Of a stretch of DNA of 64,000 nt, positions 8,089 to 39,099 are shown one piece after another. The notes beneath the pieces are model-generated. The model did not search any database. It was not told the DNA's origin and saw only the letters and a list, made by a program, of their open reading frames with translations. The translations under genes and the position numbers were made by a program. This DNA comes from Flavivirga amylovorans. GTDB lineage: Bacteria; Bacteroidota; Bacteroidia; Flavobacteriales; Flavobacteriaceae. Location of the stretch: contig NZ_JAUOEM010000001.1 of assembly GCF_030540875.1 (NCBI RefSeq), positions 744,001-808,000 of the forward strand, in the 5' to 3' direction. Every line of letters starts with the position of its first letter. Within the stretch, counting starts at the first letter, position 1.

Positions 8089-8174
8089 GTTTTTATATTT
8101 TAATTTTTACTCAGATATTATTCTATGAGTAGTAATTTTTGTTATGTTTGACTTAATTGCTTTTGTAAAGCATT

Positions 8175-8182: not shown

Positions 8183-8213
8183 CATTTTGTTATGTTGTTT
8201 TATAAATATTAAG

Positions 8214-8244
8214 ACAAAAAAAAAGCCTCAAATCGAGACTTTTT
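8214..8244 (-). terminator. Rho-independent terminator of the DUF2795 gene
   Basis: On the minus strand AAGTCTC (8241-8235) pairs with GAGGCTT (8229-8223), with one G-U pair and a 5-nt loop, followed by a run of T. It lies 24 nt after the stop of the DUF2795 gene. Confidence 0.75.
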
Positions 8245-8267
8245 AACTATATCTTTATGCTTATTTA

Positions 8268-8489: not shown

Positions 8490-8512
8490 TCTCTATTGTG
8501 TTTAATTTTTTG

Positions 8513-8520
8513 CAAAAATA
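8513..8520 (-). promoter_or_regulatory. -7 box TATTTTTG for the DUF2795 gene
   Basis: Minus strand 8520 to 8513 reads TATTTTTG, fitting TAnnTTTG, 23 nt before the ATG at 8489. A TTG lies about 22 nt further upstream. Confidence 0.45.
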
Positions 8521-8648
8521 ATTTTTTAGTTTAAACAGACAAGAAAAAAATGAATTATTTAATCATTAATTTTTAAGAACGTATCTTTTTTTAATCTAAA
8601 CAGGTGAAATTATTGTTGCTTTGTTAATATTATGCAAGCTATTTTTAT

Positions 8649-12151: not shown

Positions 12152-12181
12152 TTTGTTGTTCAAGACGAAAACTTATATTTG
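12152..12181 (+). promoter_or_regulatory. Near-consensus Bacteroidota promoter of the polysaccharide cluster
   Basis: TTTG (12152-12155), an 18-nt spacer, then TATATTTG (12174-12181): a close match to TTTG-N19-TAnnTTTG. Transcription would begin near 12188 and the first gene at ATG 12202. This is the only strong promoter seen before the 38-kb run of plus-strand genes. Confidence 0.75.
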
Positions 12182-12201
12182 TGATAAATCAATTTACCTT
12201 T

Positions 12202-12999
12202 ATGAAGAAATGCTTTTTTGTTGCTATAATGATTGTAAATATGGTATTTGTATCTTGTATACCCTATAAAGATACTATTTATCTTCAGAATAAAAGTAAA
12301 GCAACAGATTCTACTCAAATTATTGTTGAAAAACAAAAACCTTATCGTGTTCAGATTAATGATATATTGAATATTAGAATAAAGGCTGCTAAACAGGAAA
12401 CAGTAACTATTTTTAACCCTATTGGTCAAGGAGGAGATTTGAACGCAAGTAGTTTAGAACGTGCTTATTTTGATGGTTTCACAGTAGATTTGCATGGGAA
12501 TATATTGATGCCGAAATTAGGTGAGATTAATGTTTTAGGTTTTACTACAAATGAAATTAAAGGGATCATTGAAAAAAAATTATTAGAAAAAGAATATAAA
12601 GCAGCAAACGATATTTTTGTAACAGTAAAGCTTACAGGTTTGCAATACACAACAACTGGTGAAATAGGAAATACGGGTACTAAAACCATTTTTAAAGACC
12701 GTGTAAATATTTTTGAAGCTATTGCTAATTCTGGAGATATCCCTGATACTGGAGATAAGAAGGATGTTCTAATTATCAGGCAATTTCCTCAGGGACAAAA
12801 AATATTTCATTTAGATTTAACAGATATTAGTGTTATGAATTCTCCCTATTATTACATTCAACCTAATGATATGATTTATGTAAAACCATTAAAGCAAAAA
12901 TCTTGGGGAACAGGTACGACAGTTTTACAAAATTTGGGAGCTATAGCTACCGTTTTATCGTTTATTACAACTACAATTTTATTGGTAGATAGAATATAA
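12202..12999 (+). CDS. Polysaccharide export lipoprotein, Wza-like (OPX)
   Basis: An outer-membrane polysaccharide export protein. The signal peptide MKKCFFVAIMIVNMVFVSC ends in a lipobox with Cys19. The Poly_export domain follows (YRVQINDILNIRIKAAKQET), then a SLBB-type domain (GEIGNTGTKTIFKDRVNIFEAI...PDTGDKKDVLIIR). A hydrophobic C-terminal segment ends the protein, as in Bacteroidota Wza homologues that span the membrane there. A GTG at 12181 is in frame but overlaps the -7 box, so ATG 12202 is the start. It heads the cluster and is followed after 3 nt by the wzc-like gene; the two form the OPX/PCP pair. Confidence 0.9.
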   Translation: MKKCFFVAIMIVNMVFVSCIPYKDTIYLQNKSKATDSTQIIVEKQKPYRVQINDILNIRIKAAKQETVTIFNPIGQGGDLNASSLERAYFDGFTVDLHGNILMPKLGEINVLGFTTNEIKGIIEKKLLEKEYKAANDIFVTVKLTGLQYTTTGEIGNTGTKTIFKDRVNIFEAIANSGDIPDTGDKKDVLIIRQFPQGQKIFHLDLTDISVMNSPYYYIQPNDMIYVKPLKQKSWGTGTTVLQNLGAIATVLSFITTTILLVDRI

Positions 13000-13002
13000 C
13001 TT

Positions 13003-15495
13003 ATGCCTTACGACGAGATAGAAGATATTAATAGTACAGAAACAACGGCTCCAGGCGTTAGTTTTGATATTAAAGGGTTTTTATTTAAAGTTCTTAAGTT
13101 CTGGAAATTGTTTGTATTATGTATTGGCGTAGGCTTAATAGTAGCATATTCAATAAATGTTAGAAAGCAAAATGTTTACAGATTAAGTTCTCTTATGTCT
13201 GTTGAGAATGATCAGAATCCTTTTTTTGCTGCAAATACTAGTATCTCTTTTAACTGGGGAGGTGTTTCTGGTAAAGTAGGTAAAATTATGATTGCTATAG
13301 GAACTAGAAGCCATAATGAAAAAGTGGTAGACTCTTTGGGATTTTATGTACAGTATTTAAAACAAGGAGAATACAGAAAGGTTGATATTTATAAAAAAGC
13401 GCCTTTTTATATAAAAATAGATAAGGCTAAACCTCATGTTATAGCTAGACCTATTAGTATTAAGTTTTTAAGTGATTCACAATTTGAATTAAATATTGAT
13501 TTTCCATCGGATAAAGTAAAAGGACAAAATTATAGTGATAAATCGATGTCGAACATTTCGGTACCTGTAGGCTCATATAGTAAAGTTTTTAACATAGGAG
13601 AATATGTAGAACTTCCTTTTACATCATTTACTTTATATACTAGACCAGATGCTAATATTGTTGAAGATTCACAATATTTTGCTCAGTTTTTAAATTTTGA
13701 TAGTGTTGTAAATAGGTATAAAGGGGCTGTTTCTGTAAGACCTTATTCAAAAACATCGTCATCTATATTAACTCTATCTCTTAAGGGCTATAATAAAGGC
13801 AAAATTGTCGATTATTTAAATGCTACTACTGCAATTTTAGGTCAAACAGATTTGGAACGTAAAAATTTGTATGCTACTAATACCATAAAGTTTATAGACA
13901 GTAGTTTAAGTATTGTAGGAGATACTTTGAAAGCTGCAAATTATACTATGAATGCTTTCAGAAAGAAAAATAAGGTTTTTGATGTTAGTGAAGAGTTGGA
14001 AGAAGTGTCAGGAAAACTTAGTGAATTAGATTTAAATAAAGAAGCTAATGAGTCCAAATTACAATATTTAGACATTCTTGAGAATTACTTACGAACAAAA
14101 ACAGATTATACAAAAATAGCTGCGCCAACATCAGTAGGTATTGAAGAAAATAATATTTCTGCAAGCGTGTCTAAAATAACGGCTCTATCTATTGAACGTC
14201 AAGAGTTAGAGCAACTTGTTCAGGAAGGATCATCTTCTCTTAAAGAATTAGACGGCAGTATTGATGCAGAAAAGAATGTGTTATTGGAAACTATCGCCTC
14301 TACAAAACGAACCATAAATATACAGCAACAAATTATTCAAACTAATAAGTTAAACTTAGAAAAGCGTTTAAGCAAATTACCGGAGGATCAACAAGAATTT
14401 CTTAAAATACAGAGAAAGTTAACCTTAAGTCAAGAGTCTTACGATGTGTTTATGGCCAAAAGAAGTGAAGCTGCTATAATTAAGGCTGCCAATGTATCTG
14501 ATGTATTAGTAATTGAAAAAGCTAAGGATATAGGAAATGGACCTATTGGTCCTAACAGGAACCTTAATTATATGATGGCTTTTATGATTGGTTTTTTTTG
14601 TCCCTTAGTTTTAGTCTTTGTTTTGTTTTTATTAGATAATACGATACATGGTACAGATGAGGTTGAAAGACTATCTAAAATTCCTATTCTGGGCCTTATT
14701 GGTAAATATGAACACGATAATAATTTAGTTGTTTTTGACAAACCAAAGTCGGCAGTAGCTGAAGCTTTCAGGTCTGTCAGATCAAGCTTACAGTTTTTTT
14801 ATAAAAAGTTGGATAAAAAAGGCGGACGTACCATCATGCTAACCTCTTCGGTTAGTGGAGAAGGTAAAACGTTTTGCTCTATTAATATAGCAAGTGCTTA
14901 TGCTTTGTCTGGTAAAAAAACCATATTATTAGGGTTAGATTTACGTAAACCAAAGATTTTTGGTGATTTTGATATAGATAATAACATTGGTGTTGTTAAT
15001 TATTTAATAGGAGATAAAACGCTTGAAGAAGTAACTTTTAAAAGTCATATTGATAATTTAAATGTTATTACTTCAGGACCAATTCCGCCTAACCCGTCAG
15101 AATTGTTAATGAGTGATGCAATGCATGATCTTATTGCGGATTTAAGAAATGAATATGATATGATTGTACTTGATTCTCCCCCGCTAGGTTTAGTAACCGA
15201 TGCTTTGATATTATCACAGTATGCAGATGCTACATTATTTATAATAAGGCTTAATTATACTAAAAAAGGTATGCTGGAACTGGTTAATGCAAAGCATAAA
15301 TCTGGAGAATTAAGGAATATTAGTTATATACTAAACTTCTATAAAGCTAGTCATAACTATGGTTACGGATATGGATATGGTTACGGATATGGATATGGTA
15401 CTTATGGTAATGCTTACCATGAATCGTATAAGGATAAAAGCTTTACAGATAAAATAAAAGAAAGACTAAAGAATATAAAGCTCTTTAAAAAGTAA
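13003..15495 (+). CDS. Wzc-like polysaccharide co-polymerase and tyrosine autokinase
   Basis: A bitopic inner-membrane protein (830 residues). A Wzz-type periplasmic domain lies between one membrane helix near residues 28-48 and a second near 525-548, with coiled-coil-like sequence between. The cytoplasmic BY-kinase domain has Walker A SGEGKT (618-623), Walker A' LLGLDLRKPK and Walker B VLDSPPLG. The C-terminal tail (from residue 786) carries seven Tyr-Gly dipeptides and three further Tyr, the tyrosine cluster that such kinases phosphorylate on themselves. The tail is encoded by an exact 18-bp tandem repeat. It likely controls chain length and export with the Wza-like protein. Confidence 0.92.
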   Translation: MPYDEIEDINSTETTAPGVSFDIKGFLFKVLKFWKLFVLCIGVGLIVAYSINVRKQNVYRLSSLMSVENDQNPFFAANTSISFNWGGVSGKVGKIMIAIGTRSHNEKVVDSLGFYVQYLKQGEYRKVDIYKKAPFYIKIDKAKPHVIARPISIKFLSDSQFELNIDFPSDKVKGQNYSDKSMSNISVPVGSYSKVFNIGEYVELPFTSFTLYTRPDANIVEDSQYFAQFLNFDSVVNRYKGAVSVRPYSKTSSSILTLSLKGYNKGKIVDYLNATTAILGQTDLERKNLYATNTIKFIDSSLSIVGDTLKAANYTMNAFRKKNKVFDVSEELEEVSGKLSELDLNKEANESKLQYLDILENYLRTKTDYTKIAAPTSVGIEENNISASVSKITALSIERQELEQLVQEGSSSLKELDGSIDAEKNVLLETIASTKRTINIQQQIIQTNKLNLEKRLSKLPEDQQEFLKIQRKLTLSQESYDVFMAKRSEAAIIKAANVSDVLVIEKAKDIGNGPIGPNRNLNYMMAFMIGFFCPLVLVFVLFLLDNTIHGTDEVERLSKIPILGLIGKYEHDNNLVVFDKPKSAVAEAFRSVRSSLQFFYKKLDKKGGRTIMLTSSVSGEGKTFCSINIASAYALSGKKTILLGLDLRKPKIFGDFDIDNNIGVVNYLIGDKTLEEVTFKSHIDNLNVITSGPIPPNPSELLMSDAMHDLIADLRNEYDMIVLDSPPLGLVTDALILSQYADATLFIIRLNYTKKGMLELVNAKHKSGELRNISYILNFYKASHNYGYGYGYGYGYGYGTYGNAYHESYKDKSFTDKIKERLKNIKLFKK
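15361..15396 (+). repeat. Two exact 18-bp tandem repeats encoding the Tyr-Gly tail of the Wzc-like kinase
   Basis: The unit GGTTACGGATATGGATAT occurs at 15361-15378 and again at 15379-15396. Each copy encodes Gly-Tyr three times and keeps frame, so slippage would add or remove three tyrosines without disrupting the kinase. Confidence 0.9.
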
Positions 15496-15544
15496 TGTAT
15501 TATTAAAGCGCGTTAAATAAATTAACTTCAATAAAAAATAAGCT

Positions 15545-16429
15545 GTGAAACAAGAACAGTGGCTGTATACAATCTCACCCAAAAAAAGTTTAATACATTT
15601 AAATTTTAGAGAAATATGGAGATATAGAGACTTACTATTTTTATTTGTAAAAAGGGATGTTATTACACTTTACAAGCAAACTGTATTAGGTCCTTTATGG
15701 TATTTTATTCAACCTTTATTTACCTCAATTATATTTACCTTAATATTTAATGATATTGCGGATATTAAAGTGGGAAACGGAATGCCTGCTTTTCTTTTTA
15801 ATTTAGCAGGTATAACCTCTTGGAACTATTTTAGTGAATGCATTAAAGGAACGAGTGATACTTTTAAAAAAAACCAAAATATATTTGGTAAAGTGTACTT
15901 TCCAAGAGTGATTATGCCTATGTCTACGATTGTGTCAAACTTGATTAAGCTCGGCATTCAGTTATTGGTTTTTATTGCTTTTTATATTTATTTTGTCTTT
16001 TTTACAGATAAAGGATCGGCTTGCTCTCCTCAAATCTCTTTGCTTTTTTTACCTGTTTTAATTGTTCTGATGGGCTTTTTAGGTTTGGGGCTGGGGATGA
16101 TTATATCTTCTATGACGACAAAATACAGAGACCTGACTTTTTTAGTAGGTTTTGGAGTTCAATTACTTATGTATGCTTCGGCAGTTATGTATCCAATGGA
16201 GCTTATTGAGCAGAAAGTAGCAAATGGTAGCATTCCTAAATTTGCAGGTATATTTATTGAATATAACCCTATGGCTACGATTATTGAGTTATTCAGGTAT
16301 ATGACTTTAGGAACTGGAACATTTAATATAAGCGAATTTATTTATACAGGAGTCATATGTATAGTCGTTTTCTTTATAGGTTTAATCGTTTTTAATAAAA
16401 CAGAAAAAACATTTATTGATACTATTTAG
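15545..16429 (+). CDS. wzm: ABC-2 type polysaccharide exporter permease, Wzm-like
   Basis: The membrane subunit of an ABC exporter that moves lipid-linked polysaccharide across the inner membrane; 294 residues with about six hydrophobic segments. The N-terminus has the family hallmark LFLFVKRDVITLYKQTVLGPLWYF. The start is GTG 15545: an in-frame TAA at 15539 leaves no earlier start. Its ATPase partner (wzt, 17252) lies one gene downstream, with a pyruvyltransferase gene between. Confidence 0.92.
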   Translation: MKQEQWLYTISPKKSLIHLNFREIWRYRDLLFLFVKRDVITLYKQTVLGPLWYFIQPLFTSIIFTLIFNDIADIKVGNGMPAFLFNLAGITSWNYFSECIKGTSDTFKKNQNIFGKVYFPRVIMPMSTIVSNLIKLGIQLLVFIAFYIYFVFFTDKGSACSPQISLLFLPVLIVLMGFLGLGLGMIISSMTTKYRDLTFLVGFGVQLLMYASAVMYPMELIEQKVANGSIPKFAGIFIEYNPMATIIELFRYMTLGTGTFNISEFIYTGVICIVVFFIGLIVFNKTEKTFIDTI

Positions 16430-16435
16430 TAGCTT

Positions 16436-17242
16436 ATGAAAATTAGACTTTTTTGGTGGCAGGAAAAACGTGAAAACGGAAAAGAAAATTATGGTGATTT
16501 AATGTCTAAATACCTTGTTGAGAAAATTTCTAACAAAAAAGTCATCACAGTTACACACCCATCTAAGCGATTGTATAGACGTATATTTAAGCACTATTTG
16601 GCTATAGGTAGTATTATTTCTTCTGCCAATAAAAATTCTGTAGTGTGGGGGAGCGGTATTATAAAAAAAGAAGACAATATAAGAGATGCAAAGTTTTTAG
16701 CTGTCAGAGGCCCAAAAACCAGAGCTAGAATTTTAGAGAAAGGGTTTAATTGCCCAGAATGCTACGGAGATCCTGCTTTATTATTACCAGACTATTTTAA
16801 CCCTAGTATAGAGAAAAAATATAAAATTGGTATCATACCGCATTATGTCGATTATAAAGATGTAAAAGCTGCGTTTTCAAATAATTCGTCTGTAAAGGTT
16901 ATTGATTTATTAACTTATAGTGTAGAGGAAACGACTATCGAAATTTTAGAGTGTGAAAATATAATTTCGTCTTCATTACATGGAGTAATAGTTGCACAAG
17001 CATATAAAATTCCAGTTTTGTGGTTAAGGTTTTCAGATAAATTATCTGGAGATAATGTCAAATTTTATGATTATTATGAATCTGTTGGTGTACCATTTGA
17101 GGATACTATTTTAATAGAACCTAATAATCTTAATGAATCCTTAATTGAAACATTATTAAAAGAGCATAAAGATGTTTTATTAGCTGATGGTTTTCGTTTA
17201 GATCAACGTAAAAAAGATTTAATGGAATCCTGCCCTTTTTAA
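16436..17242 (+). CDS. Polysaccharide pyruvyl transferase family protein
   Basis: A 268-residue protein with features of the PS_pyruv_trans family (GT-B-like fold, CsaB/WcaK relatives): N-terminal NYGDLMSKYLVEKIS, central FLAVRGPKTRARIL with GDPALLLP, and C-terminal ISSSLHGVIVAQAYKIPVLWL. The S-S-x-H-G motif belongs to the active site of the family. Such enzymes put a pyruvate ketal, and hence a negative charge, on a sugar using phosphoenolpyruvate. It lies 6 nt after wzm and 9 nt before wzt. The acceptor sugar is unknown. Confidence 0.82.
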   Translation: MKIRLFWWQEKRENGKENYGDLMSKYLVEKISNKKVITVTHPSKRLYRRIFKHYLAIGSIISSANKNSVVWGSGIIKKEDNIRDAKFLAVRGPKTRARILEKGFNCPECYGDPALLLPDYFNPSIEKKYKIGIIPHYVDYKDVKAAFSNNSSVKVIDLLTYSVEETTIEILECENIISSSLHGVIVAQAYKIPVLWLRFSDKLSGDNVKFYDYYESVGVPFEDTILIEPNNLNESLIETLLKEHKDVLLADGFRLDQRKKDLMESCPF

Positions 17243-17251
17243 ATTATAACT

Positions 17252-18526
17252 ATGGGGAATGATATTATTTTAAAAGCCGAAAATGTTTCTAAACAATACC
17301 GTTTAGGATTGATAGGTACAGGAACAATCAGTCACGATTTAAACCGTTGGTGGAGTAGATTAAGGGGGAAGGAAGACCCTTATTTAAAAGTAGGAGATGT
17401 TAATGACAGAAGTACAAAAGGTAGTTCTGATTATGTTTGGGCTTTGCAGGATATCAATTTTGAAGTAAAAAGAGGAGAGGTTTTAGGCATTATTGGGAAA
17501 AATGGAGCAGGAAAGTCTACACTTTTAAAAATTTTGTCAAAAGTTACCGGACCAACAACCGGAGAAATTAAAACCAAAGGGCGTATTGCTTCTTTACTAG
17601 AGGTGGGTACAGGTTTTCATCCGGAAATGACAGGAAGAGAAAATATCTATTTGAATGGTGCTATTTTAGGAATGACAAAAGCTGAGATAAGCTCTAAAAT
17701 TGATGAGATTATTGATTTTTCTGGGTGTCAACGCTATATAGATACTCCTGTAAAACGTTATTCTTCTGGGATGACAGTACGTTTAGCTTTTGCTGTAGCC
17801 GCTTTTTTAGAACCTGAAATTTTGGTCATTGATGAAGTGTTAGCTGTTGGAGATGCTGAATTTCAAAAAAAAGCTATAGGAAAGATGCAGGACATTAGTA
17901 AAGGAGAGGGAAGGACTGTTTTATTTGTGAGTCATAATATGGCAGCTATTGAAACTTTATGCACCAGAGTCATTGTTTTAAAAGATGGTTGTGTTTTTAC
18001 TGAAGGGAACCCAACTCAAGCCATTAATGAATATTTAAATAGTAGTGTTTATTCTATGCGTTCAGTGGATTTTAAAGATGCTGAAGCAGGAGAAAAAGGG
18101 AATGAATTTATAGAGCTGATAGAAGCAAGTGTTGATAATGCTTCATTGGATAACAAAGAAGCCGTTTTAGATGTTACTTCTGCAATCAATGTTCGTTTTA
18201 AGTTTAAAAATTTAACAAAAAGCGAAACCATTTCTATTGGATATGATTTAAAAACCATAAAAGGTGATATTGTTTTTGGAAGTGGGAATAAATTTCCTTG
18301 TAATATTAATAAGGAGACCGAATTGATATGTCATATACCTGCGAATTTTTTAAATGATGATATCTATCAAATACATGTATATTTTCATTCAAACGACATG
18401 CAGGCTTTGTATTCAAATTCAGAGCTACTTACATTTGAAGTTAAAGACGTTAAAAGAGAATCAAACTATTTAGGTAAGGTTAACGGTATTATAAGACCAA
18501 AATTAGAGTGGACTATTAATCATTAA
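17252..18526 (+). CDS. wzt: ABC exporter ATPase with C-terminal carbohydrate-binding domain, Wzt-like
   Basis: The nucleotide-binding subunit that pairs with the Wzm-like permease. The ABC domain contains Walker A GKNGAGKST (82-90), signature YSSGMTVRLAFA and Walker B EILVIDEVLAVGDAEF. An extra C-terminal domain of roughly 150 residues from about 270, with beta-rich pattern, matches the Wzt C-terminal domain, which reads the modified end of the O-polysaccharide in known systems. This implies that the exported chain carries a recognised terminal group, for example one made by the methyltransferases or pyruvyltransferase of the cluster (inference). Confidence 0.92.
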   Translation: MGNDIILKAENVSKQYRLGLIGTGTISHDLNRWWSRLRGKEDPYLKVGDVNDRSTKGSSDYVWALQDINFEVKRGEVLGIIGKNGAGKSTLLKILSKVTGPTTGEIKTKGRIASLLEVGTGFHPEMTGRENIYLNGAILGMTKAEISSKIDEIIDFSGCQRYIDTPVKRYSSGMTVRLAFAVAAFLEPEILVIDEVLAVGDAEFQKKAIGKMQDISKGEGRTVLFVSHNMAAIETLCTRVIVLKDGCVFTEGNPTQAINEYLNSSVYSMRSVDFKDAEAGEKGNEFIELIEASVDNASLDNKEAVLDVTSAINVRFKFKNLTKSETISIGYDLKTIKGDIVFGSGNKFPCNINKETELICHIPANFLNDDIYQIHVYFHSNDMQALYSNSELLTFEVKDVKRESNYLGKVNGIIRPKLEWTINH

Positions 18527-28624: not shown

Positions 28625-29785
28625 ATGAAAATGAAGAAAATTGGTTTTATTCCATTAAGAAAAGGCTCTAAAGGTATTTCTAATAAAAATAAGAGAAAGA
28701 TGGTAGGGAGGCCTTTATTTACCTGGGTTTTAGGAGAAGCTGTTTTTTCTGATTTGGACGAAGTATATGTTTATACCGATGATCAAGATATTATTGATTT
28801 TATAAAAAAAGAGTATCACTGGACCCCAAAAGTAAAAGCACTTTTAAGAAGTGAAGAAAGTGCTGGAGATAAAGTATCTACTGAATTTGCTATGTTGGAA
28901 TTTTGTGAATCTATAAATTATGGTTTTGATGTATTTTGTTTATTACAAGCAACATCACCATTTACAAAAAGAGAAGATATTAATTCATGTTTAAATAAAC
29001 TTAATAGTAACTATGACTCTGTATTAACGGTAGTAAATACACATCGGTTTTTATGGAATGAAGATGGAACTCCTATAAATTATAATCCTTTAGATAGACC
29101 GCGTCGTCAAGACTTTGAAGGATTATTGGTTGAGAATGGAGCTGTTTATACTACAACTAAACCTGCATTAAAAAAGAATAAAAATAGATTAGGAGATAAC
29201 ATTGCTATTGTAAAAATGGCAGATGAATCTTTAATGGAAATTGATACCGAGTCTGATTGGGTAGCGGTTGAAAGTTTGTTGATAGAAAGACAAAAACGAG
29301 CGAAGGAATCACAAAAAATAACGCATGTAGTGTTAGATGTCGATGGGGTTTTTACAGATGGAACAATCACCTATACTAAAGATGGAGAACATACTAAAAG
29401 CTTTGATATGCGTGATGGTATGGGACTTGAGATTTTAAGACAATTTAATGTTGAAGTCATGATAATGACATCAGAAGATTCACAACTTGTAACTAAAAGG
29501 ATGCAAAAACTAAAAATTGAGAATGTATTTTTAGGAGTTAAAGACAAGTATACATTACTTAATAATATTATATTAAAAGAAGGTATTACGCTAAGCAATG
29601 TTGCTTATGTAGGTGACGATGTTAACGATTTAACTAATATATGTAGTGTTGGTTGGTCTTTAGCCCCTAACAATGCTACAGATGTAGTAAAGCAACATGC
29701 GGATATCGTATTATCTAAAAATTCCGGAGCAGGTGCTATACGGGAAGCGTGTCAGTTTATAATGAATTATAATAAAAGATTTTAA
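28625..29785 (+). CDS. CMP-nonulosonate (sialate) cytidylyltransferase fused to KdsC-type HAD phosphatase
   Basis: A 386-residue two-domain protein. Residues about 1-225 are an acylneuraminate cytidylyltransferase with the CTP-loop RKGSKGISNKNKR (12-24), LLQATSPFT and DNIAIVKM. Residues about 230-386 are a HAD phosphatase of the KDO-8-phosphate phosphatase type with all four motifs: LDVDGVFTDG, MTSEDSQ, a Lys in GVKDKY and GDDVNDL. Vertebrate CMP-sialate synthetases have the same order of domains. It implies a route in which a nonulosonate-9-phosphate is dephosphorylated and CMP-activated by one polypeptide. The NeuB-like gene follows 16 nt later. The sugar (Neu5Ac, Kdn or other) is not decided. 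Confidence 0.88.
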   Translation: MKMKKIGFIPLRKGSKGISNKNKRKMVGRPLFTWVLGEAVFSDLDEVYVYTDDQDIIDFIKKEYHWTPKVKALLRSEESAGDKVSTEFAMLEFCESINYGFDVFCLLQATSPFTKREDINSCLNKLNSNYDSVLTVVNTHRFLWNEDGTPINYNPLDRPRRQDFEGLLVENGAVYTTTKPALKKNKNRLGDNIAIVKMADESLMEIDTESDWVAVESLLIERQKRAKESQKITHVVLDVDGVFTDGTITYTKDGEHTKSFDMRDGMGLEILRQFNVEVMIMTSEDSQLVTKRMQKLKIENVFLGVKDKYTLLNNIILKEGITLSNVAYVGDDVNDLTNICSVGWSLAPNNATDVVKQHADIVLSKNSGAGAIREACQFIMNYNKRF

Positions 29786-29801: not shown

Positions 29802-30677
29802 ATGAATGTATACAAAAAGCCCTATATAATAGCTGAAATAGGTTGTAATCACAAAGGTGATATCGAAATTGCTAAAGAACTTATTAAAGTAGCTAAAATA
29901 TTTTGCAACGTTGATGCTATTAAATTTCAAAAGCGAAATAATAAAGAACTATTAACTAAAGAGCAGTATAGTCAACCACATCCAAACCCTGTAAACTCTT
30001 ATGGAGATACTTATGGGGCTCATAGGGAATACTTAGAGTTTAATAAGAATCAACATCAGGAATTAAAATCTTATTGTGAGGATATTGGAATAACGTATTC
30101 AACTTCTGTTTGGGATTTAACTTCTGCGAAAGAAATAACATCTTTGAATCCAGATTTTATTAAAATTCCATCAGCATGTAATAATAACATTACCATGCTG
30201 GAATGGTTATGTGAAAACTATCATGGGGAATTGCATATCTCTACAGGTATGACTACTAAAGATGAGATAGATGGTTTAGTAAGTTTTTTTAAAAAAAATA
30301 ATAGAAGTAAAGATTTGGTACTTTATAATTGCACTTCTGGTTACCCAGTCCCTTTTGAAGATGTCTGTTTATTAGACATTAACTTATTGATAGATAAATA
30401 TAAAGATGATGTTAAATCTATTGGTTTTTCTGGTCACCATTTAGGTATTGCTGTAGATGTTGCTGCTTATACTTTGGGTGCAAATATTATAGAAAGGCAT
30501 TATACCATAGATCGTACCTGGAAAGGAACAGACCATGCTGCTTCTTTAGAGCCTATGGGATTACGTAAATTATCCAGAGATGTTAATGCTGTATTTAAAG
30601 CATTACAGTTTAAACAGCAAGATATACTACCCATTGAGCAAGTACAACGAGACAAATTAAAGAACCAAAAAGTTTAA
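29802..30677 (+). CDS. N-acetylneuraminate/nonulosonate synthase (NeuB-type TIM barrel), no SAF domain
   Basis: Condenses phosphoenolpyruvate with a hexosamine or hexose (free or 6-phosphate) to a nine-carbon nonulosonic acid. Visible are IIAEIGCNHKGDIEIAKELI, AIKFQKR, the SACNNN strand end, LHISTGMTTKDEI, FSGHHLGIAVDVAAYTLGA and IIERHYTIDRTWKGTDHAASLEP with the conserved E-R-H and D-H. At 291 residues it ends right after the barrel, whereas usual bacterial NeuB (about 340) has a C-terminal SAF/antifreeze-like domain that reaches into the active site of the dimer partner. The gene end is clean, so this looks like a natural short form rather than damage. Confidence 0.88.
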   Translation: MNVYKKPYIIAEIGCNHKGDIEIAKELIKVAKIFCNVDAIKFQKRNNKELLTKEQYSQPHPNPVNSYGDTYGAHREYLEFNKNQHQELKSYCEDIGITYSTSVWDLTSAKEITSLNPDFIKIPSACNNNITMLEWLCENYHGELHISTGMTTKDEIDGLVSFFKKNNRSKDLVLYNCTSGYPVPFEDVCLLDINLLIDKYKDDVKSIGFSGHHLGIAVDVAAYTLGANIIERHYTIDRTWKGTDHAASLEPMGLRKLSRDVNAVFKALQFKQQDILPIEQVQRDKLKNQKV

Positions 30678-30691: not shown

Positions 30692-32095
30692 ATGAATAAA
30701 AAAGTTTTCGTTTTTTTTCCTGATGGTGTCGGTTTGAGAAACTTTGCCTTCACAGATTTTAAAACTATAGGAGAAAAAATGGGTTTCGATATTACGTATT
30801 GGAACAATACCGTTTTTTCATTGAAAGAGAATTTAGGTTTTAATGAAGTTAAGATAGAAGATCAGACAAGCCACCCATTACTCCCTATTTATTCAAGAGC
30901 AAGAAAACGCGCAGAGTTAAATGTATCAAGAGATAAATTTAAAGATGATGTATATCCAACTTATAAATTTCCATTTAATAACAGAGGTTTAAAAAATAAA
31001 ATTAAAAGCCTTTATATAAAATACTTAATAGGTATATATTCTTCTGAAAAAGGAATTGTTAAACTTAGAAAGAAAATTAATAAGTTAGAACGTTCAACAT
31101 CAAAATACAATTATTGTAAAGCTCAGTTAGAAGCGCATAAGCCAGATTTAGTATTCTGTACTACACAACGAGCAACACAGTCTATTAGCGCATTATTAGC
31201 AGCTAAAGATTTAGGCATTCCAACCGTAGCTTTTGTTTATTCATGGGATAATGTACCAAAAGCCATGCAAGTTGTAGAAACCGATTACTATTTTGTATGG
31301 AGTAACCTTATGAAAGGAGAGGTATTAAAATATTATCCATTTGTTAAAGAAGAGCAAGTTATTGTTACTGGTACGCCTCAATTTGAACCTCATTATAATG
31401 ATACATTATTACAAACGAGAGAAGCCTTTTTTAAAGAGTATAACTTGGATATTAATAAAAAGTATATTTGTTATTCTGGTGATGACGAAACTACGTCTCC
31501 TTTAGATCAGCATTATTTAGAAGATTTAGCAAACACTGTTAGAAGTTTAAATGCAGAAGGTGAGAATTTAGGGATTATTTACAGGAAATGCCCTGTAGAT
31601 TTTACTAATAGATATAATGCTATTATTGATGCGAATAAAGACATTATTGAGGTTTTAGATCCTATTTGGAGTCAGGTAGGTAAGCAGTGGAATCAGGTTT
31701 TGCCTACCAAAGAAGATTTTAAAATGCTATATAATGTTTGTGAACATAGCGAGTTTGTGACTAATGTATGCTCGTCCACCGTGTTTGATTTTGTTGCACA
31801 CAATAAGGCCTGTATTTACTATAATTATGAGCAACCACAATTAAAAAAAGGTATTCGAGATATAGGGCAAAACTATAAATATGTTCATTTTAGAAGTATG
31901 CCAAGTAAAGAAGCAGCAGTATTCTGTGAAGATAAAAACCATTTGAAAGATTTGGTAAAGCAAATTTTAGATGGAGAATTGTCAAATGTAGAAGTATGTA
32001 AAAAATGGTATAAAATTGTAGCTGGTAAAGTACCAACAAAAGCGTCTCAGCATATATGGGAAGCGATAGAGCTTATTTTAAAAAATAAAATTTAA
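30692..32095 (+). CDS. GT-B-like protein with capsule-transferase motifs; candidate CMP-nonulosonate transferase
   Basis: A 467-residue soluble protein I cannot place in a named family. The C-terminal half shows VFVYSWDNVPKAMQVVETDYYFVWS, VIVTGTPQFEPHY, ICYSGDD, IIYRKCPVDF and VTNVCSSTVFDFVAHNKACIYY. The last two resemble the K-x-H-P and S-S-x-x-F-D motifs of CDP-glycerol-polymer and capsule (KpsS/polysialyltransferase-like) enzymes, with Cys in place of His. These families use CDP- or CMP-linked donors. Because the gene lies directly after the CMP-sugar synthetase and the synthase, a nonulosonate transferase is the best guess. The next gene overlaps by one base (TAATG). Confidence 0.55.
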   Translation: MNKKVFVFFPDGVGLRNFAFTDFKTIGEKMGFDITYWNNTVFSLKENLGFNEVKIEDQTSHPLLPIYSRARKRAELNVSRDKFKDDVYPTYKFPFNNRGLKNKIKSLYIKYLIGIYSSEKGIVKLRKKINKLERSTSKYNYCKAQLEAHKPDLVFCTTQRATQSISALLAAKDLGIPTVAFVYSWDNVPKAMQVVETDYYFVWSNLMKGEVLKYYPFVKEEQVIVTGTPQFEPHYNDTLLQTREAFFKEYNLDINKKYICYSGDDETTSPLDQHYLEDLANTVRSLNAEGENLGIIYRKCPVDFTNRYNAIIDANKDIIEVLDPIWSQVGKQWNQVLPTKEDFKMLYNVCEHSEFVTNVCSSTVFDFVAHNKACIYYNYEQPQLKKGIRDIGQNYKYVHFRSMPSKEAAVFCEDKNHLKDLVKQILDGELSNVEVCKKWYKIVAGKVPTKASQHIWEAIELILKNKI

Positions 32096-33948
32096 TGAGA
32101 CTTTTAGGATTTGTAGATAGACTTTATAATAAGAAGATATCTTCTAAAGGTTTAGCCATCTTTAGGATTTGTTTTGCATTAAACCTTTTTTTTGAAGTCA
32201 ATAGAATATTTAGATACAGACATCTGTATTTTGACCCTATTCCATATTTAAATGAATCCTATATAGATTATACTGTCCCATTTCTTATCTGGATGGGAGT
32301 CTTATTGTTTTTAGTGTTTGGCCTTTTTACAAGGCTAATGACCGTTTTTAATTATCTATTTGTTTTCTGGATTTTTAATACGGTAGGTGTTTATGAATAT
32401 CATATGGATTATACCTATTTGGGTGCCTCCTTTGTCATGATTTTCACTCCACTATCCAGATCAATATCTATAGACAATTTGAGGAGAAAATTAAAGTATT
32501 CAAGTCTAACAAAATTATATAAACCAGTAGAGACTACATCGGTCTTGAATTATTTTATACTGATTTTTGTTGGTGTTGCTTTAGTGTATTTTGGATCGGT
32601 TTTTTATAAATTTAAATCATTAGCATGGATGAGCGGTCTGGGAATTTGGTTACCCGCATCAATACCCCAAGTCACAATTTTTAATGATCAATGGATATTA
32701 AATCAAGAGTATTTTATAAAATTTATAGGATACTTTGTGTTGATTTTTGAAATTATTTTTCCGTTTGTGTTTTTCATAAAAAAACTAAGACCATATTTTT
32801 TATTTATAGGAGTAGCACTGCATATAGGTATTTTCTTTGAGTTCCCGATACCTTATTTTGCTTTAGGGTATATAGCTATTTACTTGTTAATGATTTCTGT
32901 TGGTTTGTGGCAAATTATCATGAAAAAAGTACAATATAAAAAACCAAGGCTACAACTTTTTTATAATTCAGAATGTCAGTTTTGCCTACGTGTAAAAATT
33001 TGCATATCACATTTCGATGTTTTCAAGGCTATAGAGTTTATACCTATACAGGAGCATACTTCAAAAGAAATTTTATCTAATACCTTTTATGTTGTAAATA
33101 ATAAAGGAGAACAGTTTGTGGGAAATGCTGCGTATAAAAAAGTAATTGTTTTAATCCCATTTTTCTACCCCATAGCTTTATTAGCTTATTTGCCAGGTAC
33201 TTTTAAATTAATAAAGTTTTTATTCGGATTAGTATTTGGTATCACTAAAAGTAAAAAATCTGTTAAACTTTCAAATAATTTAGAAAACAATAAAAAGAAG
33301 ATTTCGGATAATGATATTCTATTTAAAAAAATCAGTTATAAAAGTTTTAAGATAAAAACAGCCAAGATACTTTTTATAGCACTGCTTTTCTTTCAATTTA
33401 ATGTAGTCTTTAATTTTCCTTTTAGCGAAAATATAGTTAAAAGTGCAGTTAAAATTAATCCTTCTTTAGAAAAACCAATTAAGAAATTAAAAAATTACAA
33501 GAACATATTAAATAAAAATGTTAAAAGATTTTTTGGTATTACTGGACATGGTGTTTTTGTTGATTCACATTATATAGGTTTTGATAAAATTTTTAATATT
33601 TCATATAAAGGAGAATTTTTGCCATTATATGATGAGCAAGGTATGCCGGGATATTATTTAAAAGGTGGAATATGGGCTAATTATAATTTTAGGGTAAATA
33701 AACCTTATGTTTTAGATAACCCTGAAAAATTAAAAGAAGGCTTGATTAGATATGCGTCCTTTTGGGCACATAAAAATGAAGTTAATTTAAATACAGCAGA
33801 ATTCAGTATTCACATGAAGAAGATAAATTTAACCTTTGAATGGGAAGAGAATTTTTTAAAAGAAAATTTAAGCAACCCTTGGGAAGAAGTTGGTACAATG
33901 ACATGGAAAGATAAAAAAGCAATTGTTACATTAAAGCATATAGATTAA
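32095..33948 (+). CDS. HTTM-domain membrane protein fused to a DUF393 (DCC-type) thioredoxin-like domain
   Basis: 617 residues. Residues about 1-280 contain several hydrophobic helices with the HTTM-like pattern (GLAIFRICFALNLFFEVNRIF, PLSRSISIDNLRRK, ALHIGIFFEFPIPYFALGYIAIYLL), related to the membrane part of vitamin-K-dependent gamma-carboxylase. Residues about 285-380 form a DUF393 domain: LQLFYNSECQFCLRVK gives a C-x-x-C redox motif, followed by a hydrophobic stretch. A further helix near 430 leads to a soluble C-terminal part of about 160 residues. It overlaps both neighbours by one base. Its role in a glycan cluster is unknown. Confidence 0.72.
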   Translation: MRLLGFVDRLYNKKISSKGLAIFRICFALNLFFEVNRIFRYRHLYFDPIPYLNESYIDYTVPFLIWMGVLLFLVFGLFTRLMTVFNYLFVFWIFNTVGVYEYHMDYTYLGASFVMIFTPLSRSISIDNLRRKLKYSSLTKLYKPVETTSVLNYFILIFVGVALVYFGSVFYKFKSLAWMSGLGIWLPASIPQVTIFNDQWILNQEYFIKFIGYFVLIFEIIFPFVFFIKKLRPYFLFIGVALHIGIFFEFPIPYFALGYIAIYLLMISVGLWQIIMKKVQYKKPRLQLFYNSECQFCLRVKICISHFDVFKAIEFIPIQEHTSKEILSNTFYVVNNKGEQFVGNAAYKKVIVLIPFFYPIALLAYLPGTFKLIKFLFGLVFGITKSKKSVKLSNNLENNKKKISDNDILFKKISYKSFKIKTAKILFIALLFFQFNVVFNFPFSENIVKSAVKINPSLEKPIKKLKNYKNILNKNVKRFFGITGHGVFVDSHYIGFDKIFNISYKGEFLPLYDEQGMPGYYLKGGIWANYNFRVNKPYVLDNPEKLKEGLIRYASFWAHKNEVNLNTAEFSIHMKKINLTFEWEENFLKENLSNPWEEVGTMTWKDKKAIVTLKHID

Positions 33949-34802
33949 TGACTAAAAAGCCACATATTATAATTGGCTCAAATAGTTTTTTAGGTAGAGC
34001 GCTATCTGAAAAGCTTGCCATGAGTGGTATGGAAGTGCTTGGTGTTTACCATAAGAATACAAATAATTTATACGAGGGAATAAAACATATATGGATTGAT
34101 GATTTAAAAAACCTAAAGGATAATTTTGATGTAGTTTATATTATAAGTGCATTTATTCCCAATACTACATCTTTTAGTGTTGATGATAAATTGGAAGCTG
34201 TTAATGTCAATCTCGTAGATGATTTATGCAAACAATTCAAAAAGGCTAAAATAGTACTTTGTTCCAGTGTTTCAGTATACAAGCATACTTCTGAATTAAT
34301 CACAGAGAAAAGTGTTTTAGAACCTCAATCTAAGTATGCTGAATCCAAGCTTAAAGGAGAAACGATTGTAAGGATGCATAATAAGTACGCTATTGTTAGG
34401 ATTTCCTCTATTTATGGAGTTAATATGAAAATAAAAACGTTCGTACCATTGGTTATAAAAAATGCGATTATAAAAAAAGCGATCACATTGTTTGGGGATG
34501 GTAAGAGAAAGCAAAATTATATTCACGTAAATGATGTTGCTAATTACTTATATTCGGCAGCAAAATATAAAGAGAACGATGTTTTTTTAGCAACATCTCA
34601 AGGTGAATTATCTAATTTAGAAGTGGTTAATTTTATAAAAATGTACTTACCAAATATTAAAATTAGTTTTGAAGGAATAGATAAGTCAAAATCATATCTT
34701 TATGACAATAGTTTTACTAATGAAACTTTAAAAATGACGCCTGAAAAGATATTTAAAACTGAAGTGTTAAATTGTATTGAATGGATAAAAAGAATGTATT
34801 AG
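33948..34802 (+). CDS. NAD(P)-dependent extended SDR (sugar epimerase/dehydratase/reductase-like)
   Basis: A 284-residue Rossmann protein. The nucleotide loop reads IIIGSNSFLGRAL, so the middle glycine of GxxGxxG is Ser. The catalytic Ser/Tyr/Lys set is visible as CSSVSVY and YAESKLKGE. The C-terminal half has DGKRKQNYIHVNDVANYLYSA, the usual sugar-nucleotide epimerase region. It probably acts on a nucleotide sugar (epimerase, reductase or dehydratase). The start overlaps the previous stop (TAATG), and 22 nt of its end overlap the ATP-grasp gene. Confidence 0.8.
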   Translation: MTKKPHIIIGSNSFLGRALSEKLAMSGMEVLGVYHKNTNNLYEGIKHIWIDDLKNLKDNFDVVYIISAFIPNTTSFSVDDKLEAVNVNLVDDLCKQFKKAKIVLCSSVSVYKHTSELITEKSVLEPQSKYAESKLKGETIVRMHNKYAIVRISSIYGVNMKIKTFVPLVIKNAIIKKAITLFGDGKRKQNYIHVNDVANYLYSAAKYKENDVFLATSQGELSNLEVVNFIKMYLPNIKISFEGIDKSKSYLYDNSFTNETLKMTPEKIFKTEVLNCIEWIKRMY

Positions 34803-35761
34803 TTACAGGTATTGGAGGTAATGTAGGGCAAGGCATTATAAGAAATATCAGAGCGTCACAATTTGATATAAAGGTAGTTGGTACGAATATCGAAACTTTT
34901 TCTGCGGGTAATCATTTATGTGATGTTTTTTATGAGGTTCCTTATGCTTATGACGAAAATTATATAAGTACTATTAAATTAATTGTAAAGAAAGAAGCTA
35001 TAGATTTAATTCTACCAGCTACAGATTTTGAGGTTTATTACCTTGCAAAATATAAAAATGATATTACTTGCGATATAGCTGTATCAGAGGAAGAAACAGC
35101 GTCATATTATTTAGATAAATATAATACTTATTTACATTTAAATACATATAAAATTCCTTTTGCTAGTTCATTTTTACCCAGTGAATACGATAAGAGGTTT
35201 CAAAATATTATATTAAAACCAAGGAAAGGAAGAGGCTCTCGTGGCATTCAAATAAATCCAAAAGACTGTAAGGATTGTTCAGATGAAGATTATATGATAC
35301 AAGAACTTCACAAAGGTGTTGAAATTACTACGGCTTTTTATGTAACCAAATTACAGGAGTTGCATGGGTTTATAACTTTTGAACGCATTTTAGAAAATGG
35401 AACAACAACACATTGTAAGGTTATTACAGCTTATGATGAAAAAATAAAAAAACTACTTGAGGGAATCATTTCTGTGTCAGAAATAAAAGGTTCTGCAAAT
35501 GTTCAATCCATTGTCACAAAAGAAGGAAAGATTATTCCATTTGAAATAAATTGTCGTATTTCAGGAACCAATTCAATACGTTCCAATTTTGGTTTTAAAG
35601 ATATTGAATATACACTTGAAGAATGGTTATATCAAAAGCCTCCTTCAAAACCAGAGATAAAGAAGGGGGTAGCTACCAGAGTTTTAATGGATGTTATTTA
35701 TACTGATGCAACCGACTTTAACAATGTACAAGATAACTCGGCAAAACACCATATATTTTGA
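34781..35761 (+). CDS. ATP-grasp protein (carbamoyl-phosphate-synthase-like ligase)
   Basis: A 326-residue protein. It begins with a Rossmann-like pre-ATP-grasp domain (VLVTGIGGNVGQGIIRNIRA), then DLILPATDFEVYYLAKY. The ATP-grasp part has NIILKPRKGRGSRGI, DYMIQELHKGVEITTAFYV and IIPFEINCRISGTNSIR, the last with the metal-binding E-I-N. Such ligases join a carboxylate to an amine or thiol through an acyl-phosphate. In a sugar cluster it may attach an amino acid or similar group. It is coupled at both ends: 22-nt overlap with the SDR gene, 1-nt overlap with the HAD gene. Confidence 0.78.
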   Translation: MDKKNVLVTGIGGNVGQGIIRNIRASQFDIKVVGTNIETFSAGNHLCDVFYEVPYAYDENYISTIKLIVKKEAIDLILPATDFEVYYLAKYKNDITCDIAVSEEETASYYLDKYNTYLHLNTYKIPFASSFLPSEYDKRFQNIILKPRKGRGSRGIQINPKDCKDCSDEDYMIQELHKGVEITTAFYVTKLQELHGFITFERILENGTTTHCKVITAYDEKIKKLLEGIISVSEIKGSANVQSIVTKEGKIIPFEINCRISGTNSIRSNFGFKDIEYTLEEWLYQKPPSKPEIKKGVATRVLMDVIYTDATDFNNVQDNSAKHHIF

Positions 35762-36402
35762 TGAGTACGATTAAATACATATTATTTGATGCAGCAAATA
35801 CTTTAATTCATAAACCAAGTTTATGGCTAAATTATATTCAAGCTCTAAAAGATTTTGGTTATAATGTCTCAGAAAAGGAATTAAAAAAAAGGCACAAATT
35901 ATTATCAGAATATATTAAATTTCCAGACATTACATCACAGGATTTCTATAATACATTTAATAAAGAACTCATTAATGCTTTTGGAATAATCGATACTCCA
36001 GAATTATTAAATAATATATTTAATACTTGTAAATATTTACCATGGGAAGCTTTTAACGATGTAAAGTATATCTCTAATTTTAGTTCCTGTAAATATGGTG
36101 TATTGTCAAACTTTAATTCAGGCTTAAGAAGTATACTAAAAGAAAAAATAGAAGATATAAATTTTGAACATGTTATTATTTCCGAAGAAGAAAAAGTAGC
36201 GAAACCGAATATTGAATTTTATAAGATAGCTTTGAAAAAAATAGGGTTAAAAGCTAGTGAAATATTATTTATAGGAGATTCGTTAAAACTGGATATTAAG
36301 CCGGCATTAGAGGTAGGGTTTAAGGTGCATTTAATTGATAGAGATTGCATTTATACTAGTTCTAAATATAGAATAGAATCATTTAAAGATATACGTATTT
36401 AA
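35761..36402 (+). CDS. HAD-family hydrolase
   Basis: A 213-residue HAD protein with cap domain. Motif I is LFDAANTL, where the usual second Asp is Ala, so it may be a weak or non-phosphatase member. Motif II lies in GVLSNFNSG. Motif III is the Lys in KVAKPNIEFY and motif IV is FIGDSLKLDIKPALEVG. ATG 35761 overlaps the ATP-grasp stop by one base; a TTG one codon earlier is less likely. Tight coupling suggests that it works with the ATP-grasp ligase and SDR on the same intermediate. Confidence 0.8.
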   Translation: MSTIKYILFDAANTLIHKPSLWLNYIQALKDFGYNVSEKELKKRHKLLSEYIKFPDITSQDFYNTFNKELINAFGIIDTPELLNNIFNTCKYLPWEAFNDVKYISNFSSCKYGVLSNFNSGLRSILKEKIEDINFEHVIISEEEKVAKPNIEFYKIALKKIGLKASEILFIGDSLKLDIKPALEVGFKVHLIDRDCIYTSSKYRIESFKDIRI

Positions 36403-37354: not shown

Positions 37355-37987
37355 ATGAAAAAACTAGCGATTATAGGTGCGGGAGATTTAGGGCAACAAA
37401 TAGCTTATCACGTTGCTCAGGACAATCAATTTGAAGTTGTAGGTTTTTTTGATGATTTTGCTGCGCAAGGTACTATAGTAAAACAGATTAAAGTTTTAGG
37501 TAAACTTAAAGATGTTGGAAATTATTTTGCGAATAAAGTATTTGATGAAGTAATTATTGGAATTGGATATAAACACTTGGCTTTTAGAGAAGATTTATAC
37601 AATTCTTTAAAAAACACTATTCCTTTTGCCACATTTATACATTCATCTTGTTATGTAGATGCTTCATGCTCTATAGGAAAAGGGGTTTGTATATTTCCAG
37701 GAACCGTTATTGATCAACAAGTAACTATAAAAGACGATGTTTTTATTAATGTAAGTTGTACCATTGCACATGATTCTACAATAGATAGGCATACATTTTT
37801 GTCACCTAGGGTTGCAATTGCAGGGTTTGTAAATATTGGTAAACGTTGTAGCATAGGTGTGAATTCAACTGTGATAGATAATATTAATATAGCTGATGAT
37901 GTGCAGATAGGTGGTGGTACAGTGGTCATTAAGCAAATAGAAAAATCAGGATTATATGTAGGTAATCCATCAAGATTTATAAGATGA
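37355..37987 (+). CDS. NeuD/PglD-type sugar O- or N-acyltransferase
   Basis: A 210-residue acetyltransferase. An N-terminal Rossmann-like sugar-nucleotide domain (LAIIGAGDLGQQIAYHV, VVGFFDD) is followed by a left-handed beta-helix of hexapeptide repeats (ASCSIGKGVCIFPGTVI...) with the general base in TIAHDSTIDRHTFLSPR. The family includes NeuD and PglD, which acetylate sialic acid or 4-amino-sugars using acetyl-CoA. It overlaps the WecE-like aminotransferase gene by 4 nt, which favours N-acylation of the amine made by that enzyme over sialate O-acetylation. Confidence 0.85.
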   Translation: MKKLAIIGAGDLGQQIAYHVAQDNQFEVVGFFDDFAAQGTIVKQIKVLGKLKDVGNYFANKVFDEVIIGIGYKHLAFREDLYNSLKNTIPFATFIHSSCYVDASCSIGKGVCIFPGTVIDQQVTIKDDVFINVSCTIAHDSTIDRHTFLSPRVAIAGFVNIGKRCSIGVNSTVIDNINIADDVQIGGGTVVIKQIEKSGLYVGNPSRFIR

Positions 37988-39099
37988 TACCATTTAATAA
38001 ACCATATCTAACAGGTAAAGAAACCCAATATATCGAAGAGGCAGTGAAGCTTGGTAAAATATCTGGTAACGGTGATTTTACTAAGAGATGCCAAAGTTAT
38101 TTTGAGAGCACTTTTGGTTTTAAAAAAGCATTACTCACTACTTCTTGTACAGATGCTTTGGAAATGTGTGCTATGTTAGCCAATATAGAACAAGGCGACG
38201 AAGTTATTATACCCAGTTTTACATTTGTTTCTACAGCACTGGCTTTTATCCGTCAAGGAGCAATTGTAACTTTTGCTGATTCTTATTCTGACAATCCAAA
38301 CATTGATGCGACTAAAATAGAAGCCTTAATTACCTCAAAAACAAAGGCTATTGTTGTTGTACATTATGCTGGCGTTTCATGTGATATGGATACAATTATG
38401 GATATTGCTATGCGACATAATCTACTAGTAATTGAAGATGCAGCGCAAGCTATTTGTTCTAAATATAAAGGAAAAGCTTTAGGATCAATTGGTCATATGG
38501 CAGCTTTTTCATTTCATGAAACAAAAAATATTATTTCTGGAGAAGGAGGTTTGTTGGCAATTAATGATGAACATTTTGTTAACAGAGCAGAAATTATCTG
38601 GGAAAAAGGGACTAATAGAGCAGAGTTTTTTAGAGGAGAAGTAAATAAATATGGATGGGTAGATACTGGGTCTTCATTTTTACCTTCAGAAATTATTTCA
38701 GCGTTTCTATGGGCACAAATAGAAAATATAAATGATATCCAGAATAAAAGGTTGGCTCATTGGGAGTATTATCACAAAGGCTTAAATGATTGGGCAAAAA
38801 ACAATCAAATTAAAATAATGCCAATTCCTGAAACAGAAACAAATAATGCACATATGTTTTATTTGATTTGTAAATCTGAAGAGCAGCGTAAAGCATTAAT
38901 AACTCATTTGAAGGATAGAGAAATATACGCTGTTTTTCATTATTTGAGTCTACATGCAAGTGATTATTATAAAGAAAAACATGACGGAAGAGTATTGCCA
39001 AACAGTGATAAGTTTACAAATCAATTATTAAGATTACCCATGTTTTATGAATTAAATCCAGAACATATTGTAAAAAACGTAATTACATTTAATGGATAG
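37984..39099 (+). CDS. wecE: dTDP-4-amino-4,6-dideoxygalactose transaminase, WecE/RffA-type
   Basis: A PLP-dependent sugar aminotransferase (DegT/DnrJ/EryC1/StrS family), 371 residues. It follows the WecE pattern closely: start IPFNKPYLTGKE, SGNGDFTKRCQSYFE, LTTSCTDALEMCAML, IIPSFTFVSTALAF, VVHYAGVSCDMDTIM and VIEDAAQAICSKYKGKALGSIGHMAAFSFHETKN, with the PLP lysine in HETKN. WecE makes dTDP-Fuc4N from dTDP-4-keto-6-deoxyglucose. The dTDP-sugar genes rmlA/rmlB are not in the window. The acyltransferase directly upstream would complete a Fuc4NAc-like donor. Confidence 0.87.
   Translation: MIPFNKPYLTGKETQYIEEAVKLGKISGNGDFTKRCQSYFESTFGFKKALLTTSCTDALEMCAMLANIEQGDEVIIPSFTFVSTALAFIRQGAIVTFADSYSDNPNIDATKIEALITSKTKAIVVVHYAGVSCDMDTIMDIAMRHNLLVIEDAAQAICSKYKGKALGSIGHMAAFSFHETKNIISGEGGLLAINDEHFVNRAEIIWEKGTNRAEFFRGEVNKYGWVDTGSSFLPSEIISAFLWAQIENINDIQNKRLAHWEYYHKGLNDWAKNNQIKIMPIPETETNNAHMFYLICKSEEQRKALITHLKDREIYAVFHYLSLHASDYYKEKHDGRVLPNSDKFTNQLLRLPMFYELNPEHIVKNVITFNG

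Follow-up and report, generated by a model that had tools for sequence, protein, structure and literature searches.

A putative nonulosonate transferase of GT-B fold encoded behind NeuA and NeuB genes in Flavivirga amylovorans

Introduction

Beyond those for N-acetylneuraminic acid (Neu5Ac), few nonulosonic acid transferases are known to have been proven, in keeping with the literature (PMC6388019). This study concerns a candidate for such an enzyme, a protein of 467 amino acids (aa) encoded at positions 30692-32095 on the plus strand of a 64,000-nucleotide stretch of the Flavivirga amylovorans genome (contig NZ_JAUOEM010000001.1, positions 744,001 to 808,000), which we call the window. Its homologues accompany the genes of nonulosonate synthesis, and the protein is probably a soluble GT-B enzyme that transfers a nonulosonate, whichever one it may be, from its cytidine monophosphate (CMP) form. 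It would belong to a divergent family without the histidine of the HP motif.

The closest enzymes by description are two proteins of Tannerella forsythia, GtfS (Tanf_01245, 445 aa) and TFUB4_00887 (442 aa). Two reports identify them by knock-out as transferases of pseudaminic and legionaminic acid derivatives, respectively (PMC6388019; PMC6120980). GtfS is called a GT-B enzyme there, its gene lies behind pseI, which encodes a nonulosonate synthase, and its deletion led to loss of the terminal nonulosonate; HP, D/E-D/E-G and DXD motifs are reported for both proteins (PMC6388019; PMC6120980). As far as these descriptions go, the Flavivirga protein resembles the pair in its origin from Bacteroidota, its length, its GT-B fold and the position of its gene next to a nonulosonate synthase, and differs from it in the three motifs.

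Transfer of (non)ulosonic acids in bacterial envelope glycans is also the work of KpsS1, a pseudaminyltransferase of family GT118, and of the 3-deoxy-D-manno-oct-2-ulosonic acid (Kdo) transferases of families GT99, GT107 and GT140, according to another report (PMC12887879), and the activity proposed here would be of the same kind. A further paper describes the glycosyltransferases encoded in O-glycan loci of Bacteroidota as largely uncharacterised (PMC12871550). No bacterial transferase using the CMP form of 2-keto-3-deoxy-D-glycero-D-galacto-nononic acid (Kdn) and no flavobacterial nonulosonate transferase was found in the literature searched, which comprised titles and abstract openings, with most subscription journals outside the coverage. 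The family is widespread in flavobacteria and, with an activity that is predicted only, is apparently new to experiment.

Gene order and co-occurrence

The open reading frame (ORF) is intact, with no internal stop, and a chance reading frame is excluded by the mostly full-length homologues, at 25-93% identity, in many genomes. A first-pass annotation of the window had placed the gene directly behind a CMP-nonulosonate synthetase and a synthase. This is correct, as the gene for the NeuB-type synthase (29802-30677) ends 14 bp upstream of the ORF and itself starts 16 bp behind the gene for a NeuA fusion protein (28625-29785). Homologues are present in 20 of the 40 genomes of our relatives set, the source genome (4.86 Mb) counted. 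A wider scan confirmed at least 569 relatives, among which the closest named ones are Flavivirga proteins with 91% and 88% identity, and a viral scan found no relative in viral sequences. The G+C content of the gene is 0.306, compared to 0.304 for the window.

Co-occurrence was measured in a family set of 299 genomes from the taxonomic family of the source organism, including the source genome, with a homologue threshold of E ≤ 1e-5. The gene was found in 110 of these genomes and NeuB in 158. NeuB was present in 109/110 genomes with the transferase gene versus 49/189 without it (Fisher p 2.7e-41). The sole genome with the gene and without NeuB is G096, where NeuA and NeuB are both missing from the neighbourhood of the gene (locus L071). 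That locus keeps the downstream glycosyltransferases. Its lack of the donor genes reflects either their loss or a change of donor by the enzyme.

Linkage was then counted in 120 neighbourhoods, mostly of 15 kb, which came from the window, 109 further genomes of the family set and 10 genomes of the relatives set; a second homologue of G030 was left out. Rather than sitting mainly apart from CMP-nonulosonate genes, the homologues showed the opposite: a NeuA-like ORF is near the gene in 108/120 loci at E 1e-6 (103/120 at E 1e-12) and NeuB in 103/120. In all 103 the order of genes places NeuB upstream, with 2 cases on the opposite strand. Both NeuB and NeuA were also found in 76 of 80 named loci taken from the wider scan. 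Three of the remaining loci (L253, L260 and L271) are on contigs that begin at or shortly before the gene, which cuts off the upstream part, while L240 is a true exception within its available stretch.

Adjacency was rejected as the sole proof of function, since a GT4 glycosyltransferase like the one encoded downstream at 40307 is also linked to the gene, in 111/120 loci with a loose match and 87/120 with a strict one. This linkage would suit an ordinary glycosyltransferase of the cluster, which would use a nucleoside-diphosphate sugar to add the residue next to the nonulosonate and would owe its link to NeuA and NeuB to shared cluster membership only. The weak Pfam similarity of the protein to Glyco_transf_4 and MGDG_synth, the likeness of its predicted fold to GT4 and MurG enzymes, and the presence of the transferase gene in 61 of the 64 genomes with the neighbouring GT2 are also consistent with such a role. 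However, all 49 genomes with the transferase gene but without GT2 (E 1e-60) have NeuB, and the NeuB-less G096 has GT2.

Phylogeny and donor pathway

Because other glycosyltransferases of the cluster are conserved too, gene trees were compared with the donor pathway of each locus. Among the 120 loci, 38 have NeuA fused to a haloacid dehalogenase (HAD)-type domain and lack NeuC, 74 have NeuC without the fusion, one has both and seven have neither. Two representative NeuC proteins were confirmed as such, scoring 428.4 and 384.4 bits with a cut-off of 235.9. A pathway label was given to 113 loci, with the omission of L071, L101, L114, L120, L121 and L127, which have neither marker, and L079, which has both. 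L082 was assigned by hand to the Kdn-like type, having a short NeuB, no NeuC and no fusion, and L076 was scored as NeuC type although the NeuB listed for its genome is a short one at a distant site. Orthology was filtered by taking best hits under tighter E-values and limits on length, and the labelled loci that passed them and had NeuB made up sets of 51, 77 and 66. The row of the window ended at 39100; its own GT4, GT2 and third glycosyltransferase (40307 onwards) were outside the tree comparisons.

For the 51 loci, the pathway type changed 2 times on the transferase tree and 1 time on the NeuB tree, compared to 9 times on the tree of GT2 (of 41452). The corresponding counts were 2, 1 and 10 for GT4 (of 40307) at the 77 loci and 1, 1 and 11 for the glycosyltransferase of 43985 at the 66 loci. 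Shuffled labels gave means of 16.6-26.2 changes. Earlier comparisons had used the nearest glycosyltransferase hit, which may be a paralogue, and the outcome was the same after filtering. One or two changes versus 9-11 suggest that the transferase stays with its donor pathway and that the other glycosyltransferases switch from one pathway to another, which argues against an ordinary cluster enzyme with another donor. Part of the signal may come from hitchhiking with the nearby NeuB; at the 43 loci with GT4 directly behind the gene the changes were 1 versus 3 in the nearest-hit comparison, which is the same direction but weaker.

This large family, with its at least 569 relatives, thus comes sorted by donor beforehand, into homologues located with a Kdn-like and with a NeuC-containing pathway. 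Swapping pairs between the two groups would reveal how a GT-B enzyme selects its nonulosonate, yield enzymes for the synthesis of Kdn-capped glycans and identify the substitute for the HP histidine.

Fold and family affiliation

The predicted structure is of GT-B type with two Rossmann-like domains and a mean predicted local distance difference test score (pLDDT) of 88.9, a confident model that bears out the earlier description of the protein as soluble and GT-B-like. A second structure alignment covered 77 of the 80 named homologues, with L237, L245 and L271 omitted as shortened; a prediction from the single sequence had a pLDDT of 33.5 and was not used. Among the matches listed, the best folds were those of uridine diphosphate N-acetylglucosamine (UDP-GlcNAc) 2-epimerases, at 11-16% identity. 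Thus, the question of whether the structure clearly matches a UDP-sugar or non-transferase family is answered in part: the nearest folds are of that kind and the identity is low. No sialyltransferase or Kdo-transferase fold was among the best 50 matches listed per structure search, an absence that excludes nothing.

The fold matches bring up a UDP-GlcNAc 2-epimerase-like enzyme that would stand in for the missing NeuC as the source of the precursor sugar. This candidate was rejected, and we consider it most improbable, because 75/120 loci encode a separate NeuC alongside the homologue and because two acidic residues that are invariant in NeuC are not kept. Asp101 and Glu126 of NeuC, which we take to be its catalytic residues, face Gln159 and a gap, respectively, in a profile alignment. 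Moreover, the NeuC model TIGR03568 was not among the NCBIfam matches at E 0.1.

Sequence searches of the PDB with phmmer and profiles gave no match below E 0.4, and no Pfam model matched the 467-aa protein above threshold. The best, PF04464, reached 17.6 bits versus a gathering cut-off of 22.1, which sets the protein apart from the CDP-glycerol glycerophosphotransferases TagF and TarL. These enzymes transfer a polyol phosphate and not a sugar. GT38, GT42, GT52 and GT80, the known bacterial sialyltransferase and polysialyltransferase families, which are presumably represented in the Pfam library, were not among the Pfam matches to E 1, nor among the four families matched by the 15 members of a diverse alignment. 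Likewise, GT118, GT99, GT107 and GT140 were not among the Pfam matches or the best 50 fold matches listed, in searches that included no direct comparison with these families.

The one family to emerge was NF046086 of NCBIfam, the BFO_1060 family glycosyltransferases. BFO_1060 is, we presume, the counterpart in T. forsythia strain 92A2; the name itself is absent from the literature searched. The Flavivirga protein matches the model with E 5.4e-12 and 45.5 bits, well under the curated cut-off of 200, and all 15 members of the diverse alignment match it as well (E ≤ 0.01; best E 2.6e-12). A profile was built from the 12 members over the cut-off in 395 genomes of the phylum, and a profile-profile alignment with hhalign joined it to residues 145-406 of the query over 250 columns (98.2%, E 3.5e-14 for a single comparison). 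Within this region the families share an S/T motif at the position of the SST residues. In contrast, the 12 members have an invariant KxHP (K240, H242 and P243) where the Flavivirga family has R-x-x-P, with the histidine almost always missing, and the N-terminal third is unaligned. By these comparisons, the protein is divergently related to the BFO_1060 glycosyltransferases without being a member of their family, so the earlier view that no family could be named no longer holds.

NeuB is within about 8 kb of the gene in 11 of the 12 NF046086 loci (L198-L209). In L199 there is no NeuB ORF in the stretch examined, and in L208 NeuB is cut by the end of the stretch. This association suggests that the BFO_1060 family, named but functionally ill-defined, may likewise be made up of nonulosonate transferases. 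At E 1e-12, the neighbouring GT4 and GT2 are in none of the 12 loci, and the third glycosyltransferase is in one (L209). What these relatives have in common with the Flavivirga locus is the nonulosonate genes and not GT4 or GT2, and this, together with the trees, makes an ordinary cluster glycosyltransferase with a nucleoside-diphosphate sugar donor improbable in our view.

The co-occurrence with NeuB, the linkage behind NeuA and NeuB, the donor-tracking tree and the homology to BFO_1060 all point to a nonulosonate transferase, and they uphold the core claim of the first-pass annotation, that the protein uses the product of the two preceding genes. From such evidence we infer the transferase activity, as we do Kdn as the donor, the acceptor, the linkage and the catalytic residues.

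Conserved motifs

Conservation was counted in 122 aligned proteins, made up of those of the 120 loci and two proteins of L209. The motifs YRKCP and CSSTVFDF, which had been reported for the protein, are at residues 297-301 (31580-31594, plus strand, as for all motifs below) and 360-367 (31769-31792), respectively. CSSTVFDF is a firm S-S/T motif, with S361 and S/T362 each in 121/122 and D366 in 120/122. YRKCP occupies the position that the HP motif has in related enzymes; R298 is in 122/122 and P301 in 120/122. Position 300 is variable: Cys is the most frequent residue (75 proteins), followed by Ser (28), Val (8), Ala (5) and Asn (3). Therefore, the idea that YRKCP echoes K-x-H-P with Cys in place of His fits loosely. 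A divergent homologue in L209 (13983-15320) reads RPHP at exactly this place and so links the R-x-x-P and KxHP motifs. Cys300 itself was rejected as the catalytic residue on account of its variability.

Four other motifs are conserved. PDGVGLRNF (residues 10-18; 30719-30745) is a candidate N-terminal acceptor or catalytic loop, with D11 in 110/122, G12 in 114/122 and N17 in 115/122; 7 of the 122 rows have gaps at these positions, and all three residues are invariant in the 15-sequence diverse alignment. SWDN (184-187; 31241-31252) is a signature of the family, found in 122/122. GTPQFE (227-232; 31370-31387) probably starts the C-terminal nucleotide-binding half, with P229 and Q230 in 122/122, F231 in 121/122 and E232 in 105/122. 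SGDD (262-265; 31475-31486) has S262 in 119/122, D265 in 118/122 and D264 in 90/122.

One tentative explanation, to which we give slightly less than even weight, is that the homologues are CMP-nonulosonate transferases that form a glycosyltransferase family of their own, a new one, divided by donor into at least two branches, one for Kdn and one for nonulosonates dependent on NeuC. Such a family would lack the HP histidine of bacterial sialyltransferases, and a different conserved residue, such as Asp186 of SWDN, Asp11 or His399, would have taken over its role.

Donor sugar

The gene at 28625-29785 (plus strand) encodes the protein proposed to make the CMP-sugar donor. In this 386-aa fusion, a CMP-nonulosonate synthetase (residues 1 to ~220) is joined to an HAD domain like that of KdsC or Kdn-9-phosphate phosphatase (~230-384). 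The N-terminal half of the fusion is CTP_transf_3 (PF02348, E 3.6e-15). TIGR01670 matches above its cut-off (E 1.6e-40), the Kdn-9-phosphatase model NF058599 matches below it (137.5 bits, cut-off 180), and the PDB matches are PpNeuA 9t4z and KdsC 4um5. The gene at 29802-30677 (plus strand) encodes a short, 291-aa form of a NeuB-family nonulosonate(-9-phosphate) synthase (PF03102, E 2.3e-66), which matches TIGR03569 at positions 2-274 of 329 with E 9.7e-60 and a score of 202.3 bits that falls short of the cut-off (399.65).

No NeuC gene is at the window locus. A profile search of the source genome found no NeuC over the cut-off (best 93.9 bits), and no NanE was found there. In the established Kdn pathway, mannose-6-phosphate is converted to Kdn-9-phosphate, then to Kdn and then to CMP-Kdn. 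With a short NeuB, a phosphatase fused to the synthetase, and NeuC and NanE missing, this route is the simplest, and CMP-Kdn appears to be the likeliest donor, a preference that we hold with a little better than even confidence. NeuB would carry out the condensation of phosphoenolpyruvate with a six-carbon sugar phosphate, the HAD half of the fusion would then take off the 9-phosphate, and the NeuA half would make the CMP-sugar. In the cytoplasm, the transferase would then move the nonulosonic acid from its CMP form to a growing envelope glycan, the remainder of which would be built by other glycosyltransferases of the cluster. For homologues encoded together with NeuC, the donor would be CMP-Neu5Ac or one of its relatives.

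Another possible explanation is that the protein is a nonulosonate transferase whose donor here is CMP-Neu5Ac or a further nonulosonate. N-acetylneuraminate synthase is the top NCBIfam match to the short NeuB, at a score under the cut-off, a weak NeuC/WecB-like protein is encoded elsewhere in the source genome, and the Kdn-9-phosphatase score is also under its cut-off. Set against these points are the lack of NeuC and NanE just described and the absence of NeuC from 38 of the 39 loci with the HAD fusion, and we regard a donor other than CMP-Kdn as rather unlikely.

Neighbouring genes

The stop codon of the transferase gene and the next start, at 32095, share one base, and the two genes thus look co-transcribed. 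The product of the following gene (32095-33948) is 617 aa long and has a DCC1-like thiol-disulfide oxidoreductase domain (PF04134, 27.9 bits versus a cut-off of 27.8), which is odd company for a glycan cluster. The cluster presumably also spans export genes with an ATP-binding cassette transporter (about 12181-18526), many glycosyltransferases and a lipid-carrier sugar transferase at 48560, as named from reading the sequences.

In L209, from a genome of the same taxonomic family, three related glycosyltransferase genes on the minus strand (6202-7584, 7591-8940 and 13983-15320) flank one NeuA/NeuB set. Two of them match the Flavivirga transferase family and one is an NF046086 member over the cut-off; the glycan of this locus may hold more than one nonulosonate.

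Further along the window, a short-chain dehydrogenase/reductase-type epimerase/dehydratase, a PylC-like ATP-grasp protein and an HAD hydrolase are encoded consecutively at 33948-36402 and are possibly a sugar-modifying module. At 37355-39099 there are genes for a NeuD-type acetyltransferase and a WecE-type dTDP-4-amino-4,6-dideoxygalactose transaminase, both over their cut-offs, suggesting the synthesis of dTDP-Fuc4NAc rather than a nonulosonate step.
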